From NCBI GenBank assembly GCA_022841745.1, contig JALHQW010000007.1:124001-188000 (forward strand): a stretch of 64,000 nucleotides of DNA, in the 5' to 3' direction. The notes beneath the pieces were generated by a model that was not told the DNA's origin, ran no database searches, and saw only the letters and a list, made by a program, of their open reading frames with translations. The translations under genes and the position numbers were made by a program. Below, one piece after another: positions 28,348 to 41,376 of the stretch (positions are counted from its first letter, which is position 1; every line of letters begins with the position of its first letter). Origin of the DNA: Saprospiraceae bacterium. Lineage in GTDB: Bacteria; Bacteroidota; Bacteroidia; Chitinophagales; Saprospiraceae.

Positions 28348-28492
28348 GCCAAAGCTGGGTCTTTTGCAATCCCAGCGACGTTTCACCCACCTTCCTATGT
28401 AATATCCGCAGTTAGCTGCATCTGCCAAAAGGTTTTTCTAAAAACCGCCAACCATTTTCCGGGCAGCCCTCGTTGTCCTTTTTACATAGCAG

Positions 28493-29140
28493 ATGCAAAA
28501 CAACATTTACACTACTCAAAGCCCGGACGCCCTCCTCGTGGAGGGTTGCCGCCAGCAACACCGAATGGCGCAGCAATGCCTGTACCAGCGGTACTATGGC
28601 CGGTTGTTGGGCACCTGCATGCGGTACACCGGCAGCCGCCCCGAAGCGGAGGACGTGCTGAACCGGGCGTTCCTGAAAATCTTCCAACGCATCGGCGAAT
28701 ACTCCGAGCAGGGCAGCCTGTTCGGTTGGATGGCGACCATCACGCTGCGCACGGCGATTGACTTTGTGCGCTCGCAGGTGAAAATGCGCAGCGTCTCCCT
28801 GTTTGGTGAGCCTCCGGAGACACCACACGACGATGGCATCTTGGAGCAATTGCAGGCCGAGGACATCTATCGCCTCATTCAACAGTTGCCAGCAGACCAA
28901 AGGGCCGTCTTTTCAATGAACGTGGTGGAGGGCTATACCCACCGGGAGATTGCGGAATTGCTTGGTATCAACGAGAATACCTCGAAGTGGCGGCTGGCGG
29001 AGGCGAAGAAGGGGCTGCGGGAGCGGCTCCTGGCGCATTTGCCCCTGACCCCTAAAGGGGAACCTAATCGGGGAAGTGCTCCCCATAAATCAAAAATTGA
29101 AAAGCTACCACAAACTGAAAGTCCGTGGGTTCCCCTTTAG
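28493..29140 (+). CDS. ECF-type RNA polymerase sigma factor
   Basis: 215 residues. Sigma region 2 covers ~25-95 (LYQRYYGRLLGTCMRYTG, EDVLNRAFLKIFQRI, FGWMATITLRTAIDFVR) and region 4 ~125-180 (LPADQRAVFSMNVVEGYTHREIAELL with the helix-turn-helix in NENTSKWRLAEAKKGLR), the usual ECF arrangement. The natural end is near LLAHLP; the following ~30 residues are encoded by spacer-type repeats and may be dispensable. Forty-nine bp downstream is the anti-sigma/A2M fusion, so this sigma factor is probably the partner released by that protein. Confidence 0.92.
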   Translation: MQNNIYTTQSPDALLVEGCRQQHRMAQQCLYQRYYGRLLGTCMRYTGSRPEAEDVLNRAFLKIFQRIGEYSEQGSLFGWMATITLRTAIDFVRSQVKMRSVSLFGEPPETPHDDGILEQLQAEDIYRLIQQLPADQRAVFSMNVVEGYTHREIAELLGINENTSKWRLAEAKKGLRERLLAHLPLTPKGEPNRGSAPHKSKIEKLPQTESPWVPL

Positions 29141-29158
29141 TCCCGATAGCTATCGGGA
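29042..29158. repeat. Palindromic spacer repeats at the sigma/A2M junction
   Basis: Contains a 26-nt element (29042-29067) whose exact reverse complement recurs inside the A2M gene at 32922-32947, and an 18-bp perfect palindrome TCCCGATAGCTATCGGGA (29141-29158) that recurs inside the A2M gene at 29492-29509. The first is within the sigma gene tail. Confidence 0.95.
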
Positions 29159-29189
29159 AGGGGCAAAAGGCGGCTAATCCTGTAGAAAA

Positions 29190-32100
29190 ATGGACAAGAA
29201 TCAAAAAAATATAAAGCAAAAGCTCGCCGACCACGAGTTTGACTACAACCCGGCGGCGTGGGAAAAAATGGAGCATCTCCTCGATGACAGGACTCCAAAT
29301 AGAAGCTATTTTTTAACTAAAACTGTTTTAGCTATGACGACTTTACTAATCGTGCTTGCGGTGCTTTTCATGCAGCGCAACACAGAAGGGACTACCAGTC
29401 CTTCAATCTCTACGCAGGTTTTTCAAGAAGCAAAAACCACTGACAATCAAGCTGTTGCGCAAGCAGCTAAGCCAGCTGGGCCAGATTTCCGTCCCGATAG
29501 CTATCGGGATGAAGACTTCGGAAATCTCACTCCAAGCCTTCCTGCCCCCCCAAATCTTAAATCTGATTTCTTAAATCTGAAATCTGAAATCAAAACCCCA
29601 CACGACAGTTCATTCTACCAAAAACTCTTTTCCGCTCTCTCCCTCCACACCCAGGCCCTCTCCCCCGAAAAGGTCTATCTCCAGTTCGACCGCCTGTTCT
29701 TCGAGCCGGGTGAGGACATTTGGTTCAATGCCTACCTGCGAGACGCCAACTCGTTGAAGGCCAGCCCGAAAAGCGACATCCTATATGTGGAACTGCTTGG
29801 CCCGAATGGCTCGGTGTTGAAGAAAATCAACCTAATGGCAAAAGGAGGCACGGCGGCTGGCGACTTCAAATTGGAGCCAAACGCTCCCGGTGGTCTTTAT
29901 AAAATCAGGGCCTACACCAACTGGATGCGCAATGCCAACGACGCCTTCGAGCGGGACATACAGGTGCAGGCGACGGTACTGCCCCGGCTGCGCATGGAAC
30001 TTGATTTTATTAAAAAAGCCTACGGCCCAGGCGACGTGGTGGAGGCTAAAATTGACCTGAACACCTTGGCCAATGCGCCGCTTACCAATTATGATTTCAC
30101 AGCCAAGGCCAGTCTATACGGACAGCAGTTCACCGAGGTGGCGGGCAAAACGGACGGACGGGGACACGCCAAGGTCAAGTTCGACCTACCAAAAGGCTTA
30201 GAGACCAACGACGGCCTGCTCAACATACTTATCTCCTACAATGGTCAGACCGAGAGCATCAGTCGCAGCATCCCGATTGTACTAAACAAGATTGACCTCC
30301 AGTTCATGCCAGAGGGCGGCGACATGGTGGCCGGGCTGCCAGCCACGGTGGCCTTCAAGGCACTGAACGAATGGGGCAAACCCGCTGATATTGCTGGCAA
30401 AATCGTGAACTCGAAGGGCGTGGAAGTTGCCCGGTTCGAGAGTTACCACCAAGGCATGGGGGCCTTCAATTTTACTCCGGCGAGTGGGGAAAACTACCAC
30501 GCCGTTCTGACAAAACCAGAAGGAATCACGGAAAAATACGGCTTGGCGGATGCCTTCCCCCGTGGTTTTTCGATGAAGATAAACCCGCTGCAAAAGGACG
30601 AACTGACGGTGGAGGTCAATTCCACGGAGGATGAGGCGCTGCACGTCGCACTTGTTTGCCGAGGCGAGGTGAAATACATGCAGACCTTGCCCGCCCGTGC
30701 TGGCTCGCACCTCGTCCGAATCCCTGTGAAATCGCTGCCCATCGGCATCGCTCAAGTTACCTTGTTCGACAGCCGGGAACTGCCGAGGGCCGAGCGGCTC
30801 GTGTTCCTCAACCATGACAAACAACTGAAAATCAGCGTAAAAACGGACAAGGAGAAATACATGCCCCGTGAAAAAGTGACCATGACCGTGAGCGTGACGG
30901 ACGAGCGGGGACTGCCCATGCCCGGCCAGTTCAGCCTCGCCGTGGCAGACGACAACCTGCTCACTTTTGCCGATGACCGTCAGGGCCATATCCTCAGCCA
31001 CCTCTTGCTCGAAAGCGAACTAAAGGGCAAGGTGGAGGAACCGAATTTTTATTTTGAACCAAAAGAAAAACACCCTGAGAAGAACGAACTACTGGCATTG
31101 GACTACCTGATGCTTACGCAGGGTTGGCGGCGGTTGGCTTGGGAGGAAATGCTTGGTAAGCAGTCGGTTGCGATGCAATTTGAGAATGAGCGTGCGGTGA
31201 TGACTGGAATCATGTTGGATGAATTTGCCAAGCCAATTGCAAGGCAAAAAGTGATTTTGCAAGGTACTTCACTCACAGCCATGACAGACGAAAATGGAGT
31301 ATTCACGCTGGACACCCTGTTTGACAATGCCGCTTGGATGAAAGTGAAAGCGGATGATTCCGGGTTTTACCATGCAAAAAACATTGAGTTCAAGGGGCCA
31401 AATTCAGCAGTACTGCGAATGCCCTGCCTTGTGTCCTCTAACGGGGTTTCATGGACGGAAAACCCAAAAAGCATGGCAAAAATCGCTCGTTTGTCAGGTG
31501 TGGCTATAGATGAATTTACCGAGGAGCCATTGATTGGGCTGACCGTGCTGCTAAAATCGAACGGAAAAATCATCAAAGGGGCAGTTTCCGATGTAGATGG
31601 CAGTTTTAACTTTGACTTGCCTGCCACAGGAAATTACGATGTAGAACTCACTTACACAGGTTACCAAACGGTTCGTTTGCAGAACATTAGTCTAATTCAG
31701 GGAAAGACCGTGAACGTGTTGCCTTCCCTAAAGCCTGACCCACAGCAGCTTTCGGAAGTGGTAGTGGTTGGTTACGGAGTACAAAGGAAGCAAGACGCAA
31801 CCGGGTCTGTAGCAATCATTGAAAAAGACAGCAAAAAGCGGAAAGCACCAAAGGCTTCCGCTAAAAAGGAGGAACTGTCCCAAGTTAACCTACCAGCCGT
31901 TGAGTTGGCTTACGTTCGCCCAATCATTGAGCAAGATAACTCTACGCAAGGGAAGCCCCTTACCTCAGAGGAAATCAAGGCACTCCCAACCAGGGATGTA
32001 ATCAGCCTTAGTTCATCCACTGCTGGCGTATCATCTGTAGACGAGGGTGCCGATATTGGCGTGCGAGGCAGCCGCACCGACGCAACGGCTTATTTTATTG

Positions 32101-34634
32101 ACGGCGTAAGGGTGACTGGGAATTTACCCCCGAAGCAAGCATTAAATGGAACATTATCAGACAAACTACCCGGCATTCCAGCTCAGTTTGACAAGGATAT
32201 TCAAATGAACGTGGAAGGCTCAATCGGGGAGAAACTGAAACTCAGCACCAACTACAACACGACAGCCACCTTTGATTTTGATGGAGAGGAGGACATTATT
32301 AGCCAAATAGAGGCCGGTAATGTGAGCCTGCCGCTCAAGGCCCAAACAGACCTAAGCATGCCAGGGGATTTGAACAAAAAGATGGCTGATAGAAACCGAA
32401 CCAATTTCAGTCAGCAAAACTTAGTCACGCAATTCCACGCCCCCCGGCAGTTCTACGCCCCCAAATACGGCGAGGAATCCGCAATCCGCAATCCGCAATC
32501 CGCAACCCGGGATGATTTCCGCAAAACCGTCTTCTTCGCTCCCAAACTCGAAATCGGACGAAACGGCCGGGCCATTGTTGAATTCTACAACACCGACGCC
32601 ATCAGCACCTTCCGGGCAACGGTAGAAGGGCTTGGCACCGATGGCAGCATTGGCCGCACCGAGCAGCGGTTCTTCACCCAAATGCCATTCAGCATGGACG
32701 TGAAAGTGCCCGTCAACTTGCTCATTGGCGACCGCTTGGCCTTCCCGTTGGCTTTGACTAACAACACAGCCAAAGCCCTGACGGGTAAGCTTTCCATCGA
32801 AATGCCAAACGGATTTTCTTCGGTAAAAAACATGGGCGAAATCATCACACTCAAGCCCGGCGAAAGCACCACGATATACCCCGAATACCTCGTTGGCCTT
32901 CCTACCTCGGACAGTTCGGGTTTAGGTTCCCCTTTAGGGGTCAGGGGTGGGGGCATGAAAGTGTCGTTCGAATCAAATGGCCAAAGCGACGCCTTCACCC
33001 AAGCCCTCAAAGTACAGCCCCGTGGCTTCCCAGTTGACCTTGTTTTTGGGGGAAATGACCGCAGCAAGACCTTCACTGTACCCGTAAAAGATGTGGTAGA
33101 GGGCAGCCTAACCGCTACCTTCACAGTTCACCCCAGTGTGTTAAGCGACTTGACCACGGGATTAGAGCGGATGATTCGGCAACCGAATGGCTGCTTCGAG
33201 CAGACGAGCAGCACCAACTACCCTAACTTATTGGTAGTCAACCTTTTGGGTACGACGAACAATTATGCATCCGATATTGTTGCCACTGCGATGCAGCACC
33301 TCGACTTCGGTTACAAACGCCTAAAAACCTTCGAAGTCAAGGGCGGTGGCTTCGACTGGTACGGCAAGCCCCCTGCACATGAGTCGCTAACGGCTTATGG
33401 ACTGATGCAGTTCGTGGACATGAAGGCAGTCTATCCCGTGGAGCAGGAATTGATTGACCGCACCGCCGATTGGCTGCTCAACCGCCGGGATGGCAAGGGC
33501 GGCTGGATGGCAAGCCAGCAGGGGCTGCACAGTTGGCACCAGCAGTCGCCCGTGCGGGATGCGTACATCACTTGGGCCATGACCGAGGCAGGCTACGGCA
33601 AGCGGATTTCCAACGAAATGACAAAGCTGGTGAAGGATGCCCGTGAAACGCAAGACCCGTACATCGTCGCCCTTGCCGCCAAGTCGCTGCTAAACATAGG
33701 CGACCGCCGGGCCGAGGAGTTCCTTGCCATTTTGACCAAAAGCCAAGCTACGGACGGCAGTTGGACGGGCAAGACCGTGAGCATGACCCACTCTACTGGC
33801 AAGAACCTGACCGTGGAGACAACGGCGCTGGCTACCTTGGCCTTGTTGGCAAATATAAATGCGGCAGAAGGCGGCGCTTCGGCAACAGAAATGGCTGGGC
33901 TGAACAAGGCCGTGACTTATCTTGCTGGGGCAAAAACGCAGTATGGCTTCGGCAGTACGCAAGCCACCGTGCTGGCGTTGAAAGCCCTTGTTGCCAATGC
34001 CAAGTTCATGAAAAAAAGCATCGGCGGCGAAGTGCAGTTGTTTGTGAACAGCAAGTCGGCGGGCACCCGCAAGTTTACCGCCAACGAATCCAATGCATTG
34101 GTTTTCAATGGTTTGGAACAATATTTTACCGAAGGAAAAAATGAGGTCAAGGTCAAGTTTGCCGATGGCGATGCACTACCCTACGACCTCTCGGTGAAGT
34201 ATTCGACGACGCTGCCGTACAGCAACCCTGATTGTAAATTGGCGCTGAAAACAGTTTTGAGTTGCGAGTCACAAGTTGCGAGTTTGGGCGAAACGGTGCG
34301 TTTGTCCACGGCCATTACCAACCGAGCATCGCAGGCAGTGCCGAATCCAATAGCCATTGTGGGCATACCGGCAGGGCTAAGCGTACAGCCTTGGCAGGTG
34401 AAGCAAATGCAGGAGCGGGGCTTGATGGACTTCTACGAAATCAAAGAAAGCTATGTGGTGTTCTACTTCCGGGGCATGGATCCTGGCGAGGTGAAGGAGC
34501 TTCACTTGGACCTGAAAGCCGACGTGCCGGGCGAGTACGAAGCACCTGCATCGGCGGCTTGGTTGTACTACTCCAATGATGCGGTTGTTTGGAGCAAGCC
34601 GGAAAGGGTGGTGATTGGGAAATTGGGAAATTAG
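29190..34634 (+). CDS. Anti-sigma-like / alpha-2-macroglobulin fusion with thioester and plug-like segment
   Basis: 1814 residues. Residues 1-40 are cytoplasmic and resemble the N-terminus of Bacteroidota anti-sigma factors (KLADHEFDYNPAAWEKMEHL). One membrane helix lies at about 45-61. Macroglobulin-type domains start near 158 (VYLQFDRLFFEPGEDIWFNA). A carboxypeptidase-regulatory-like domain at ~768-840 leads into a SusC-like VVVVGYG (857-863) and a truncated TonB plug-like stretch (~936-978, RGSRTDATAYFIDGV), with no beta-barrel. The A2M core resumes near 1108, and the thioester motif GCFEQ has Cys1335 and Gln1338. The complement-like toroid and C-terminal domain follow. Known A2Ms trap proteases; here the same chain may signal to the sigma factor encoded just upstream. 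Confidence 0.88.
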   Translation: MDKNQKNIKQKLADHEFDYNPAAWEKMEHLLDDRTPNRSYFLTKTVLAMTTLLIVLAVLFMQRNTEGTTSPSISTQVFQEAKTTDNQAVAQAAKPAGPDFRPDSYRDEDFGNLTPSLPAPPNLKSDFLNLKSEIKTPHDSSFYQKLFSALSLHTQALSPEKVYLQFDRLFFEPGEDIWFNAYLRDANSLKASPKSDILYVELLGPNGSVLKKINLMAKGGTAAGDFKLEPNAPGGLYKIRAYTNWMRNANDAFERDIQVQATVLPRLRMELDFIKKAYGPGDVVEAKIDLNTLANAPLTNYDFTAKASLYGQQFTEVAGKTDGRGHAKVKFDLPKGLETNDGLLNILISYNGQTESISRSIPIVLNKIDLQFMPEGGDMVAGLPATVAFKALNEWGKPADIAGKIVNSKGVEVARFESYHQGMGAFNFTPASGENYHAVLTKPEGITEKYGLADAFPRGFSMKINPLQKDELTVEVNSTEDEALHVALVCRGEVKYMQTLPARAGSHLVRIPVKSLPIGIAQVTLFDSRELPRAERLVFLNHDKQLKISVKTDKEKYMPREKVTMTVSVTDERGLPMPGQFSLAVADDNLLTFADDRQGHILSHLLLESELKGKVEEPNFYFEPKEKHPEKNELLALDYLMLTQGWRRLAWEEMLGKQSVAMQFENERAVMTGIMLDEFAKPIARQKVILQGTSLTAMTDENGVFTLDTLFDNAAWMKVKADDSGFYHAKNIEFKGPNSAVLRMPCLVSSNGVSWTENPKSMAKIARLSGVAIDEFTEEPLIGLTVLLKSNGKIIKGAVSDVDGSFNFDLPATGNYDVELTYTGYQTVRLQNISLIQGKTVNVLPSLKPDPQQLSEVVVVGYGVQRKQDATGSVAIIEKDSKKRKAPKASAKKEELSQVNLPAVELAYVRPIIEQDNSTQGKPLTSEEIKALPTRDVISLSSSTAGVSSVDEGADIGVRGSRTDATAYFIDGVRVTGNLPPKQALNGTLSDKLPGIPAQFDKDIQMNVEGSIGEKLKLSTNYNTTATFDFDGEEDIISQIEAGNVSLPLKAQTDLSMPGDLNKKMADRNRTNFSQQNLVTQFHAPRQFYAPKYGEESAIRNPQSATRDDFRKTVFFAPKLEIGRNGRAIVEFYNTDAISTFRATVEGLGTDGSIGRTEQRFFTQMPFSMDVKVPVNLLIGDRLAFPLALTNNTAKALTGKLSIEMPNGFSSVKNMGEIITLKPGESTTIYPEYLVGLPTSDSSGLGSPLGVRGGGMKVSFESNGQSDAFTQALKVQPRGFPVDLVFGGNDRSKTFTVPVKDVVEGSLTATFTVHPSVLSDLTTGLERMIRQPNGCFEQTSSTNYPNLLVVNLLGTTNNYASDIVATAMQHLDFGYKRLKTFEVKGGGFDWYGKPPAHESLTAYGLMQFVDMKAVYPVEQELIDRTADWLLNRRDGKGGWMASQQGLHSWHQQSPVRDAYITWAMTEAGYGKRISNEMTKLVKDARETQDPYIVALAAKSLLNIGDRRAEEFLAILTKSQATDGSWTGKTVSMTHSTGKNLTVETTALATLALLANINAAEGGASATEMAGLNKAVTYLAGAKTQYGFGSTQATVLALKALVANAKFMKKSIGGEVQLFVNSKSAGTRKFTANESNALVFNGLEQYFTEGKNEVKVKFADGDALPYDLSVKYSTTLPYSNPDCKLALKTVLSCESQVASLGETVRLSTAITNRASQAVPNPIAIVGIPAGLSVQPWQVKQMQERGLMDFYEIKESYVVFYFRGMDPGEVKELHLDLKADVPGEYEAPASAAWLYYSNDAVVWSKPERVVIGKLGN
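29492..29592. repeat. Spacer-type repeats inside the A2M reading frame (N-terminal)
   Basis: The 18-bp palindrome TCCCGATAGCTATCGGGA (29492-29509) is coding for RPDSYRD. It is followed by AATCTGAAATC-type tandem repeats (29555-29592) coding for NLKSDFLNLKSEIK. Both lie in the linker between the membrane helix and the first macroglobulin domain. Confidence 0.85.
32474..32511. repeat. AATCCGC heptamer repeat inside the A2M reading frame
   Basis: About five AATCCGC units coding for EESAIRNPQSATRD, immediately before the A2M bait/macroglobulin core resumes. The same unit is intergenic near 16529. Confidence 0.85.
32922..32947. repeat. 26-nt repeat inside the A2M reading frame
   Basis: Exact reverse complement of 29042-29067. 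It codes in frame for part of GLGSPLGVRGGG, a glycine-rich loop between two predicted macroglobulin strands. Confidence 0.9.
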
Positions 34635-37773: not shown

Positions 37774-40700
37774 CTATGGTTTAATTACTTCAACCAAATT
37801 GTTGAAATTAGCCTCCCATATCACATAATCGCCCAATCCTGCAAATCCACCTCCATCTAAATCTGTAGGAATATAACCATCTATGAGGTTATTAAAATCG
37901 CTTTCCCAATCAATATACTCCTCTAAACCGACAAAATTATTTGATGGGTTTGTACTAAAATTCCCGCTATAAATCACAGGAATACTTCCAGACAATCCAA
38001 GGTTGCTGCCATACGCTTGTCCAACCGAGCCAAAATTATAGGTAGGGCTAAAACTGAACGCCTGCGCTGTGGCGCTCCAAGTCTCCACAAAATTCCTTCC
38101 TTTAATCACGATGTAATAGTTATTGCCCACGGTAGAAGGTGGGAAAACAGCGGTGGCTGTACCCGTAGTGCTAAGTATAGTCTTTTTGGAAAAAACCTCC
38201 GCATAAGGGCTTGTAGGCGCATGCAATGCGACGGTGATGGTATCGCATTGACTGCCAGTAGCACCAGGCACCATGCTGTTCTGCAACACGGGTTGCATGA
38301 CACTGCCGTTCATATAACCTTGAATGAAAGTCTGGGAAAGCCCGAGGTTTGCCGTGCAGTCCGTGATGAGCTCCAAGCTCCAGGTTTGAAGTGACCCGCC
38401 GTCACCACCAACAAGGTCATTGATAGTCAATGTCCAGGTACCGTTGGGCGAGGTACCGTTCAATCCGGCAAACGAAGTGATCGGCTGGAAAGTGCCATTG
38501 ATGGCATAAGGAGGAGGCGTAGCCCCTGAGGAGGAATTACATGTGCTCTCCAATTGGGCGGCTGTTTGGGTGGCGTTATTGTCAAGCGTGACCAAGATAT
38601 GATTCTGGCTGCACCCGTTGCCCCCAGGTGTTGTTGTGCCTGGTTGGTCGAACAAGACATAATCCACATTGCCCGGCGATTTCAAAGTTGCTTTTAAATC
38701 TCCTACCCAGCTATGGTGTATGTTCAAATCTTTCACTTTGAACCCAATGATATTGCCGTTTATGCCACTTAATGTGAGTGTGGAAGTGATTGTTGGAGTA
38801 CCCGATCCTGAAATGGTGACGGGCACATTGGTGCTTGCCGTCGTTTGTGTACATCCAGTGGTGAAGTTATAGGTGGCAGACCAAGGCCCATCGCAACTAC
38901 TCGAACCCCTTACCCTCCAGTAATAGGTCGTAGTTGCGCTCAACGGACTTGTAACCGTAAAGCTCGTGGATGTAAGCCCTGTGGCATTAATAACTGTGCT
39001 TGGAAAGCTGCTGCTCGTTGATACTTGTAATTGGTAAGTGTTGGAGTTGGCAGCGGTTCCCCAAGTAAATGTTGGTAGCGTTGTTATACTTGGTACATTG
39101 TTAGTTGGGGCAGTAAGCGCAGGGGCACCTGGCAAGGCATTAACGGTCAAAGCGATATTGCGGTTGATGGTCAATGCCCCGCTGACACCTGTTACAACTG
39201 GGTTGAAATTCCCAGTTGCGGCATTGGTGGTTTGTATGGTCAGTGTTGTAATGCCGGGCACAGTGACTGGGTTTGTGCTGAATGTTGCAGTAGCACCAGC
39301 TGGCAAGTCCGTGGCGCTTAAGTTGACACTGCCACCGAAACCACCAATTGAACCTAAGGTGATGGTATAGACCGCATTGGTAGGCTTACAAACCGTCTGA
39401 CCATGCGGGCTGGAGGTGATACTGAAATTGCTCGCCCCAGTGGTAATGGTAAAATTCGCATTGGAAATATCGTAGAAAATATTGCCATTGGCCCTAACCA
39501 TGATGCGGGCCGTCGTGCTGGCCACGTTTGGAATGGCAGCAACCTGTGAGCCATCATTGGGCGTCGCCACCAATAAGGTATAGGGATAAGTCAGGCCACC
39601 GTCCACGGACATGAGCACGTCCACATTTGCACAGTTGACGGGGGCGGCATTGGTGCTCGCCACATCCCAGGTGATGGTTTGGAGGGAACCACCGGCCCAA
39701 CTCACTGCCGTATTGGGCGAAGTGACGAGGAATGGCCCTGCCGTTCCATTGACGGTCACCACCATATTGTCTTCTGCCGTGCAGCCACCACCCATGCGGT
39801 TGTCTCTGACCGTAAGCCTAAAGTTCAAGGTACGGGCCACGCTGTTCAATACCTCCCAAGTCGGACTTACGTTGTTCACGACATCCTGCAAACGTGGGAG
39901 GTAGCGAACAGGTGAGGTAGTACCTTTGAAGGAACGGAACATCGGGCCGGCCGTATTGGTGGATGCAGGTGGCATAGTGACCGTGGCAGTAACATTGTCC
40001 ATTTGTTCCCAAGTGTAGGTGATTGGATCGCTGTTCGGGTCACTACCTACCCCTGTCAGTAGGAAAGGGGTTGACCTTGGTATCACGTAATCAGCACCGG
40101 CGTTAGCTGTTGGCGCAGTATTGATGGTGCTATTGGATGAGCAAGCGTTGGCGCTACCCGTCACCAATGTTGCGATTTCTTGTACGCTAATGGCATGAAA
40201 ATAGTCATCGGAATTGCTCTGGACATTGGGAGAACAAATACCCGCATAACCCATGATGGTGCTGGCGCTACCAGGTTCCATCGAGGTAGCGTTGTTCCGC
40301 TGGCAGGCGTTACTTTGCGTATGGTTGCCAGCAAATTGGTGCCCCATCTCATGGGCCACATAATCAATGTCGAAAGCATCACCTATTGGCGCTCCGCTCC
40401 CTGTGACACCACGTGCCTTGTTCCCAGTTATGCATACTACGCCCAAACCTGCTATACCGCCCCCACCTGTCGAGAATACGTGCCCAATATCATAATTGGC
40501 ATTGCCAATGACTGCATCGCATTTGGCTTGGTTTTCACCCAACATCGTACTGCCATTTGTATTCGTATAACCGTCTGTTACAGGATCCAAAAAAATAAGG
40601 TTATTGTTGTTTGCCACAAGGGTCATGTGGACGGAAGCGTCTTTTTCAAAAACGCCATTCACCCTCGTCATAGTCGTGTTGAATGCAGAAGCAACCAAGG

Positions 40701-41376
40701 GTACTGTGCCGCCATGAAAAGTAGCGTACTCTCCAGTACAAGCCAAAGCGAGGCTATAATCACGCAAAACACAGTCTCCCGCCATCTTGGCTGGGTCAAT
40801 GGGCATTGGCTTGTACTCATGCGTTATCTCTTCGAAATGACAGGCCCAAGGTTCCGTTTTTTGGGAGTCCTTGCGGTAATAAACCTGGTAGTTGACCAAA
40901 TCATCCGTAGAATAAGGATCAATGAAGACCGTGCTATGCGCTGGGCTGCGTATCATACCGTGGAAGCCCCGCAGGGTAAAATCGCCCCGGAAATAGGCAG
41001 CGGGGTCGTCAATACCGATGCCAGCATACGATCGGATGTCAGGGAACTTGGCCTGTAGGTCGGGGTGCATGACCGGGGCCTCCAGTATGCGGAAGCGCTG
41101 AAAGCTGCCATTGGGCATGGGGAGGGTTATGACGTTCTCAGACTTCTCCGCTTCTTCGGTACGCCATAGTGGTGACTTCGCCAACATAGATTTCATGGCC
41201 GCAACATCCAACGATGCTGTCAAATAATTCTTCGGGGTTATCTGCCTAAATTGGCTTTTGGCAGTAAGGCCCGACTCGGAAATGAATTTCCAAGGGTTGG
41301 ATGATTGTGCAAAGGAATTAGTGAATGCCAAAGCAAGGAAGCTAATGGCGAAGGACAATTGCTTGAAATTCAGCAT
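37774..41376 (-). CDS. Reprolysin-like metalloprotease with dockerin-like C-terminus
   Basis: 1200 residues. Signal peptide ends NSFAQ (24). The M12B-like catalytic domain (~205-410) has HEMGHQFAGNH and the Met-turn TIMGYAG. Then come a PKD-like domain (PTANAGADYVIPRSTP), Ig-like and FN3 domains, and a proprotein-convertase P-like domain (GDLKATLKSPGN, NGTWTLTINDLVGGD). The last ~190 residues form the module shared with the giant gene at 43123 (GYMNGS, YYIVIKGRNFVETWSA, YGSNLGLSG), ending in a degenerate and an intact dockerin-like EF-hand loop (DLDGGGFAGLGD), then WEANFNNLV. It lacks the type A sorting domain. Predicted secreted zinc protease, perhaps anchored by its C-terminal module. Confidence 0.9.
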   Translation of the reverse strand: MLNFKQLSFAISFLALAFTNSFAQSSNPWKFISESGLTAKSQFRQITPKNYLTASLDVAAMKSMLAKSPLWRTEEAEKSENVITLPMPNGSFQRFRILEAPVMHPDLQAKFPDIRSYAGIGIDDPAAYFRGDFTLRGFHGMIRSPAHSTVFIDPYSTDDLVNYQVYYRKDSQKTEPWACHFEEITHEYKPMPIDPAKMAGDCVLRDYSLALACTGEYATFHGGTVPLVASAFNTTMTRVNGVFEKDASVHMTLVANNNNLIFLDPVTDGYTNTNGSTMLGENQAKCDAVIGNANYDIGHVFSTGGGGIAGLGVVCITGNKARGVTGSGAPIGDAFDIDYVAHEMGHQFAGNHTQSNACQRNNATSMEPGSASTIMGYAGICSPNVQSNSDDYFHAISVQEIATLVTGSANACSSNSTINTAPTANAGADYVIPRSTPFLLTGVGSDPNSDPITYTWEQMDNVTATVTMPPASTNTAGPMFRSFKGTTSPVRYLPRLQDVVNNVSPTWEVLNSVARTLNFRLTVRDNRMGGGCTAEDNMVVTVNGTAGPFLVTSPNTAVSWAGGSLQTITWDVASTNAAPVNCANVDVLMSVDGGLTYPYTLLVATPNDGSQVAAIPNVASTTARIMVRANGNIFYDISNANFTITTGASNFSITSSPHGQTVCKPTNAVYTITLGSIGGFGGSVNLSATDLPAGATATFSTNPVTVPGITTLTIQTTNAATGNFNPVVTGVSGALTINRNIALTVNALPGAPALTAPTNNVPSITTLPTFTWGTAANSNTYQLQVSTSSSFPSTVINATGLTSTSFTVTSPLSATTTYYWRVRGSSSCDGPWSATYNFTTGCTQTTASTNVPVTISGSGTPTITSTLTLSGINGNIIGFKVKDLNIHHSWVGDLKATLKSPGNVDYVLFDQPGTTTPGGNGCSQNHILVTLDNNATQTAAQLESTCNSSSGATPPPYAINGTFQPITSFAGLNGTSPNGTWTLTINDLVGGDGGSLQTWSLELITDCTANLGLSQTFIQGYMNGSVMQPVLQNSMVPGATGSQCDTITVALHAPTSPYAEVFSKKTILSTTGTATAVFPPSTVGNNYYIVIKGRNFVETWSATAQAFSFSPTYNFGSVGQAYGSNLGLSGSIPVIYSGNFSTNPSNNFVGLEEYIDWESDFNNLIDGYIPTDLDGGGFAGLGDYVIWEANFNNLVEVIKP

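Follow-up and report, generated by a model that had tools for sequence, protein, structure and literature searches.

A sigma factor gene paired with a membrane-anchored alpha-2-macroglobulin in Saprospiraceae: a candidate sigma/anti-sigma unit that may respond to proteases

Results

An ECF sigma factor gene and a transmembrane alpha-2-macroglobulin gene form a pair

The window analysed here is a stretch of 64,000 nucleotides from a Saprospiraceae bacterium (GenBank assembly GCA_022841745.1, contig JALHQW010000007.1, positions 124,001 to 188,000 of the forward strand). It contains a gene for an extracytoplasmic function (ECF) sigma factor and, separated from it by exactly 49 bp, a gene for a transmembrane alpha-2-macroglobulin (A2M); the features of this pair are collected in Table 1. 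The original prediction for this DNA had described the same order of sigma gene, 49-bp gap and 1814-residue A2M, and the open reading frame (ORF) coordinates agree. It had also called one membrane helix, A2M domains and an intact thioester motif at Cys1335/Gln1338: a hydrophobic helix is indeed found near residue 42, the MG2, A2M and thioester (TED) domains are all recognized by Pfam, and a CFEQ motif occupies both of the predicted positions.

The sigma protein comprises regions 2 and 4 only (Pfam Sigma70_r2, residues 30-95, 5.5e-13; Sigma70_r4_2, residues 123-173, 2.2e-16). In NCBIfam it scores 87.2 bits with TIGR02937, for which the cut-off is 42.9, and it falls under the respective cut-offs of TIGR02985 and NF058625. 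As for the A2M, Pfam places an A2M domain at residues 1113-1201 (2.2e-5), and the top Foldseek matches of a structure model of residues 1-700 are complement C3/C5 chains and TEP1, with the A2Ms of E. coli and Salmonella also matched. This model was built from 33 alignment rows (L038 was left out of the structure alignments) and has a mean predicted local distance difference test score (pLDDT) of 73.9; it shows helices at residues 4-14, 21-32 and 38-63, disorder from 65 to 136, and then macroglobulin domains.

In the window the pair is flanked by CAP and PhoD-like genes. When 13 sigma-A2M loci were compared, the sigma and A2M genes proved to be the only ones common to all, and every other ORF had relatives in at most one other locus; because these two genes alone are shared, we treat the pair as a unit.

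Table 1. Features of the sigma-A2M locus, in coordinates of the window (residue numbers are those of the A2M)
Feature	Position	Strand	Details and basis
ECF-type promoter-like site	28448-28476	+	-35-like CCAACC (28448-28453), 17-base spacer, -10-like CGTTGT (28471-28476); motif recurrence
ECF sigma factor gene	28493-29140	+	215 aa; Pfam and NCBIfam; relative upstream of 28/28 segment-bearing A2Ms among the matches listed
Transmembrane A2M with putative N-terminal anti-sigma segment	29190-34634	+	1814 aa; ORF, Pfam, Foldseek, linkage
Short putative anti-sigma segment, residues 1-34	29190-29291	+	Alignments, profile searches; two model helices (4-14, 21-32)
Membrane helix, about residues 42-62	29313-29375	+	Hydropathy 2.18 near residue 42; model helix 38-63
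Tether, residues 63-140, mostly disordered	29376-29609	+	pLDDT <50 over residues 65-136
MG2 domain, residues 161-247, start of macroglobulin body	29670-29930	+	Pfam 1.8e-13; Foldseek
CarboxypepD_reg domain of insert, residues 768-859	31491-31766	+	Pfam ~1e-16; model
Degraded plug-like part of insert, residues 894-997	31869-32180	+	Plug sub-threshold; also in another protein of the genome
SprA-derived piece, residues 999-1051	32184-32342	+	85% identity to the genome's own SprA
Variable low-confidence stretch before MG7, residues 1052-1105, likely bait region	32343-32504	+	Position, low pLDDT, orthologue variability
Thioester domain (TED), residues 1319-1601	33144-33992	+	CFEQ at 33192-33203 (residues 1335-1338); Pfam 2.7e-26, alignment

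The N-terminal segment and the sigma gene are present or absent together

The A2M probably has its N-terminus inside the cell, judging from the layout and from the charged residues that precede the membrane helix. The cytoplasmic part would then amount to about 41 residues, none of them cysteine, and its first 34 residues form the segment of interest, in which Trp24 and Met27 are invariant across a 15-row alignment. Pfam gave no match in the N-terminal segment at E<=0.1, and no solved relative was found by sequence, the best hit being a Homer protein at E 0.23.

We collected A2M relatives at E<=1e-60 from 150 genomes of the family, 29 of which contained one (the window's own included). The loci gathered comprised 51 regions around A2M relatives, one other region of the window's genome and six named loci; an upstream sigma gene was called by phmmer with the window's sigma protein at E<=0.01. 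Such a gene precedes 15 A2Ms, that of the window included, and the segment is present in all 15; in L054 and L094 it is missed by a strict motif and is visible in the alignment. The search was then widened with a profile of the segment plus MG2 (profile A2), which matched 156 of 398 family genomes. Among the matches listed, A2Ms that bear the segment (the match starting within the first six positions of the profile) occur in 28 genomes and 11 genera, and each of the 28 has a sigma gene upstream on the same strand, which in G182 and G191 is cut by the contig end. In 10 of these 28 listed pairs the two genes overlap by 4 bp; the distance rises to 0.43 kb in G015 and 1.17 kb in G022. The 28 cases overlap with the first 15 and are not 28 independent events.

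The complementary count comes from A2Ms that lack the segment and whose 5' end is available: none of 35 such loci has the sigma gene (three of them offer only 0.7-1.1 kb of upstream sequence, and eight loci truncated at their 5' ends were excluded). The homologue search that had been named in the original prediction as a check thus finds sigma neighbour and segment together in 28 of 28 listed cases and both absent in 35 of 35. The accompanying description of the N-terminus as anti-sigma-like is upheld by its conservation, by this linkage and by the phylum-wide association described below, which far exceed what chance would give; it finds no counterpart in Pfam.

This linkage is kept across considerable divergence: identity falls to 39% between sigma proteins and to 25% over the N-terminal 900 residues of the A2Ms. 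Distances of the two partners are correlated (Mantel r 0.764, 26 pairs, 0 of 2000 permutations), as would be expected of linked genes anyway. A quick tree of 48 A2Ms requires three changes to account for the sigma-linked rows; because the two 'free' rows that intrude among them, L039 and L040, are truncated at their 5' ends, a single origin of the sigma linkage is the simplest reading. When profile A2 was run over 395 genomes of the phylum, the window's own A2M was the only match to start within the segment, and 7 of 14 same-genus genomes (own included) gave no match to the profile at all. As far as sampled, the sigma-A2M arrangement seems to be restricted to the window's family and to be patchy there.

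The segment recurs behind other ECF sigma genes

The segment is not confined to A2Ms. A profile of 15 A2M N-terminal segments (profile A1) found, in the window's genome (G000; 8.4 Mb in 178 contigs) and besides the A2M itself, matches on C11 (best E 7.4e-4, three copies), C8 (0.013) and C18 (0.14); those on C11 and C8 lie directly behind ECF sigma genes, and that on C18 does not. Run over 390 genomes of the phylum, the same profile matched 25 times at E<=0.001, in 22 of the genomes. Leaving aside the window's A2M, 23 of the 24 begin proteins directly behind an ECF sigma gene, with starts that range from 46 bases upstream to 9 bases downstream of that gene's end; the exception is a 66-residue ORF. 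Twenty aligned segments share a pattern: a charged helix that ends near 'ENHE', a short loop, and 'AW.KME..L'. At the phylum loci L308-L330, then, ECF sigma genes of Bacteroidota are repeatedly followed by a 34-residue segment that Pfam does not match.

We also examined 48 of the 51 sigma matches in the window's genome; the three set aside are that of the window itself, another match on C40 and one located at a contig end. Visual inspection shows a protein with a segment-like N-terminus following 12 of the 48; a loose regular expression returned 17. Scans of 10 of those 12 proteins gave beta-barrel matches at E<=0.05 in five, two of them above cut-off, and scans of 10 proteins from the 23 phylum loci gave OMP_b-brl_2 in five (three above cut-off) and PKD in one. 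The protein at L132 (1056-2777; G000 C11), which also stands behind an ECF sigma gene, carries three tandem copies of the segment before a hydrophobic stretch, and L148 apparently carries two.

The association of genes strongly supports the segment as an anti-sigma module. Class I anti-sigma factors are reported to accompany only 6% of Bacteroidetes ECF genes (PMC7406223), and the recurrent segment may explain regulation where class I domains are rare.

A promoter-like site marks the sigma-A2M operon

Upstream of the sigma gene lies an ECF-type promoter-like site that is absent from the original prediction. The pattern CAAC[CT]-N17-CGT[TC] was found in 18 of 23 regions upstream of sigma-A2M pairs and in none of 36 regions upstream of free A2Ms, i.e., those with no sigma gene (two of the 36, L055 and L076, sit inside split genes). 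With 200 shuffles, a mean of 0.085 regions and a maximum of 1 contained the pattern, and other spacings from 12 to 22 gave 0 or 1 region. The 23 regions were drawn from the 28 pairs after removal of one duplicate and two contig-end cuts; the set does not include G352, G241 or G275. Among the regions that the pattern misses, L038 and L256 had their starts called too far upstream (the exact motif is present in the matching genomes, G217 and G358), L094 shows the motif by eye, and L084 has a 16-base spacer. L054 (2309-4050, G022), the sole sigma-A2M pair with a 1.2-kb gap, has no promoter motif by pattern.

We also searched six same-genus genomes with a strict same-genus form, CCAACCA-N14-CTCGTTGTCC, allowing up to two mismatches. 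There is one exact match per genome in all six, each at the sigma-A2M operon; two-mismatch matches numbered seven, versus 11 for the reversed control. In the window's genome CCAACC-N{12,22}-CGTTGT gave 14 matches, versus 22 for its reversed control. These searches gave no sign of a wider regulon: genome matches do not exceed the reversed control, and exact strict matches occur at the operon only, although weaker targets may exist. Because ECF factors commonly transcribe from their own promoter and the strict site was found only here, we regard dedicated autoregulation of the operon as quite probable, with the A2M as its likely main product and main predicted output.

The thioester motif, the insert and the presumed bait region

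The CFEQ motif is present in 17 of the 20 sigma-linked A2Ms that span the site. Between the MG domains and MG7, where the bait region is expected, lies an insert composed of a CarboxypepD_reg domain and a degraded plug-like part, both of which are common to close orthologues. The Plug match (residues 924-977) reaches 21.9 bits against a Pfam cut-off of 23.9, and in the NCBIfam scan the A2M matches the first 112 positions of a SusC model. The original prediction had taken this insert as a link to SusC-like signalling. That proposal is unsupported, and we rejected SusC/TonB-type signalling through the insert: it is about equally filled in free and in sigma-linked A2Ms, it occurs also in an unrelated protein of the window's genome, and no FecR, STN domain or TonB-dependent barrel was found in Pfam/NCBIfam scans at E<=0.1. 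Unlike TonB-linked FecR/SusC-type systems, the pair offers only CarboxypepD_reg, a sub-threshold Plug and a partial SusC match.

Inside the insert is a piece derived from SprA, likewise absent from the original prediction; it is found only in the window's A2M among six aligned (it is missing from five close orthologues), which suggests recombination into the presumed bait region. We take the stretch at residues 1052-1105 as the likely bait region in view of its position, low pLDDT and variability among orthologues. A model of residues 560-1345 has a mean pLDDT of 58.3 and is better in the CarboxypepD_reg and MG parts only; Foldseek matches of the insert model apparently rest on the MG domains. 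Repeat-like peptides, RNPQSA and LPTGQAG, noted at 32481-32504 and in the A2M coding region of L256, occur in the variable stretch before MG7 and also in the tethers of some orthologues.

Other features of the window and its genome

A perfect 18-bp palindrome, TCCCGATAGCTATCGGGA, occurs between the two genes (29141-29158) and again within the tether coding region (29492-29509). The window's genome has only 5 such sites, and the counts in three same-genus genomes are 0, 3 and 16; this sequence could represent a mobile palindromic element. The third gene downstream of the A2M (37774-41376, minus strand) encodes a Reprolysin-like metalloprotease with a P-domain, which could be a self protease. 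The window's genome also contains a second, distant A2M-like gene (L183, 1125-6788, on C27; 26% identity over the match).

Discussion

Comparison with described systems

The layout of the window's A2M is similar to that of the Dma family, for which an N-terminal anti-sigma domain, a membrane helix, a long disordered tether, an extracytoplasmic C-terminal domain and an adjacent ECF sigma gene are described (PMC13088901). Here the anti-sigma character is indicated by gene association and the order of helix, then tether, by the model; moreover, the window's segment matches ECF-adjacent proteins, several of which have beta-barrel-like C-termini. The likeness is one of layout, and the two differ at the C-terminus: the C-terminal domain is an outer-membrane beta-barrel in Dma proteins, whose paired ECF group is ECF21, but a thioester A2M in the window.

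In the CnrY system the sensor is a separate protein. In CnrY-like (class II) anti-sigma factors, two helices are wrapped around the sigma factor and contact sigma4 and sigma2. These class II domains are described as having fewer than 50 residues and two helices (PMC7406223), which is also how the segment of about 34 residues is modelled, although it has no sequence match to a solved anti-sigma factor. Class I domains, in contrast, exceed 50 residues and some contain an Hx3Cx2C zinc motif; the shorter, cysteine-free cytoplasmic part of the A2M has neither this nor a Pfam match.

With type I A2Ms (ECAM/YfhM of E. coli; Salmonella A2M) the protein shares the macroglobulin body, the CXEQ motif in the TED and, as reported for that type, inner-membrane anchoring (PMC4498604). 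It differs in being anchored by an N-terminal helix with a cytoplasmic anti-sigma-like segment, in having the insert before MG7, and in its partner gene, which is the ECF sigma gene rather than pbp1C. The type II A2M MagD of Pseudomonas aeruginosa is reported to trap protease without a thioester (PMC5764988), and three sigma-linked relatives (L081, L084 and L094) are likewise without CXEQ. Unlike the window's protein, which keeps the motif, MagD belongs to a six-gene operon and needs MagB to take its place at the membrane. Among the open-access papers listed by our searches, at the level of titles and abstract openings, we found no A2M acting as an anti-sigma factor; the arrangement resembles a protease trap put in place of the Dma beta-barrel on an anti-sigma layout.

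A proposed mechanism

That the sigma and A2M genes encode a sigma/anti-sigma pair is, on the sequence evidence, very nearly assured in our judgement. For the pair as a whole, we hypothesize a self-regulating two-gene unit that is alarmed by bait cleavage, an explanation that we consider somewhat more likely than not; that protease capture is the signal itself seems to us slightly more plausible than the contrary. At rest, the two-helix segment of 34 residues would hold the sigma factor at the inner membrane, this segment lying inside and being followed by the membrane helix, the disordered tether and a periplasmic thioester A2M. A protease that enters the periplasm would cut the bait stretch, and the A2M would collapse round it and so be spent. 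The anti-sigma part would then be lost or altered, most likely through turnover of the spent A2M or through regulated proteolysis. Once free, the sigma factor would transcribe its own operon, supplying more sigma and more trap and thereby resetting the unit. Sigma binding and protease trapping by the A2M are expected here from knowledge of the respective families, and the route of sigma release is our conjecture. In its fullest form, to which we give somewhat less than even credence, the A2M would be trap, sensor and anti-sigma factor in one: each captured protease would spend one anti-sigma molecule, and the freed sigma would refill the trap from an operon-dedicated promoter.

Several observations weigh against this mechanism. 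L081, L084 and L094, three of 20 sigma-linked A2Ms, are without the thioester motif yet have the segment and the sigma gene; L081 and L084 retain a sub-threshold TED match, and L094 has none. Because the motif is missing there, covalent trapping is ruled out as the signal in these three, and their branch must either sense without covalent capture or have changed the event that is sensed. The segment is modelled with moderate confidence (block pLDDT 51-71), and a tether of about 75 disordered residues can hardly be expected to transmit a shape change mechanically. The bait stretch was located by position only, where the model is poor (mean pLDDT 58.3), and the Pfam bait-region model A2M_BRD stays sub-threshold (14.9 bits; cut-off 22.7). 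In favor of the mechanism, the window's genome encodes PF02163, a site-2-type protease family, but so do all 14 control genomes, and being universal it is weak evidence. Finally, the genome has two more copies of CCAACC-N17-CGTTGT (three of the 14 matches have the 17-base spacer); both are located within open frames of 150 codons or longer, on either strand, and look like chance.

The three relatives just described also bear on a different account, in which the protein is a true anti-sigma factor whose A2M body senses some other cue: envelope damage, a small nucleophile acting on the thioester, or a binding partner of the insert. Other short-segment proteins have beta-barrel-like or PKD domains instead of an A2M, and a beta-barrel anti-sigma pair of Phocaeicola is reported to be toxin-induced, probably through envelope stress (PMC9308784). 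Retention of the motif in 17 of the 20 A2Ms covering the site argues against this account, as does the occurrence of the insert in free A2Ms that have no sigma partner, and we think it unlikely, though to be reckoned with. Less likely again is that the A2M senses nothing and is simply the output: the sigma factor would drive A2M synthesis, newly made A2M would titrate the sigma factor and so keep the trap at a set level, and other inputs would activate the sigma factor. The occurrence of the strict promoter form only at the sigma-A2M operon in six genomes would fit such feedback, as would the identity of the downstream gene, the A2M itself, and its 4-bp overlap with the sigma gene in 10 of the 28 listed pairs; however, a large extracytoplasmic domain joined by a tether to a membrane anchor is the layout described for Dma-type anti-sigma factors (PMC13088901).

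It is also conceivable, but in our view very improbable, that the genes are merely co-transcribed and that the N-terminus is an ordinary membrane anchor that makes no contact with the sigma factor. The segment has no solved relative by sequence, and sigma binding is here a prediction. Against mere co-transcription, the segment comes and goes with the sigma gene; the conserved part is a cytoplasmic motif beyond the anchor, and it recurs across the phylum behind ECF sigma genes in different proteins, and in tandem copies within one protein.

Significance

If the proposed alarm by bait cleavage is correct, protease attack on the periplasm would become a directly readable transcriptional signal, and these bacteria would possess a one-protein, self-replenishing and complement-like immune alarm in the periplasm. 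The promoter motif makes the circuit testable by reporter, and the profile of the 34-residue segment provides a handle on the regulators of some other Bacteroidetes ECF genes.

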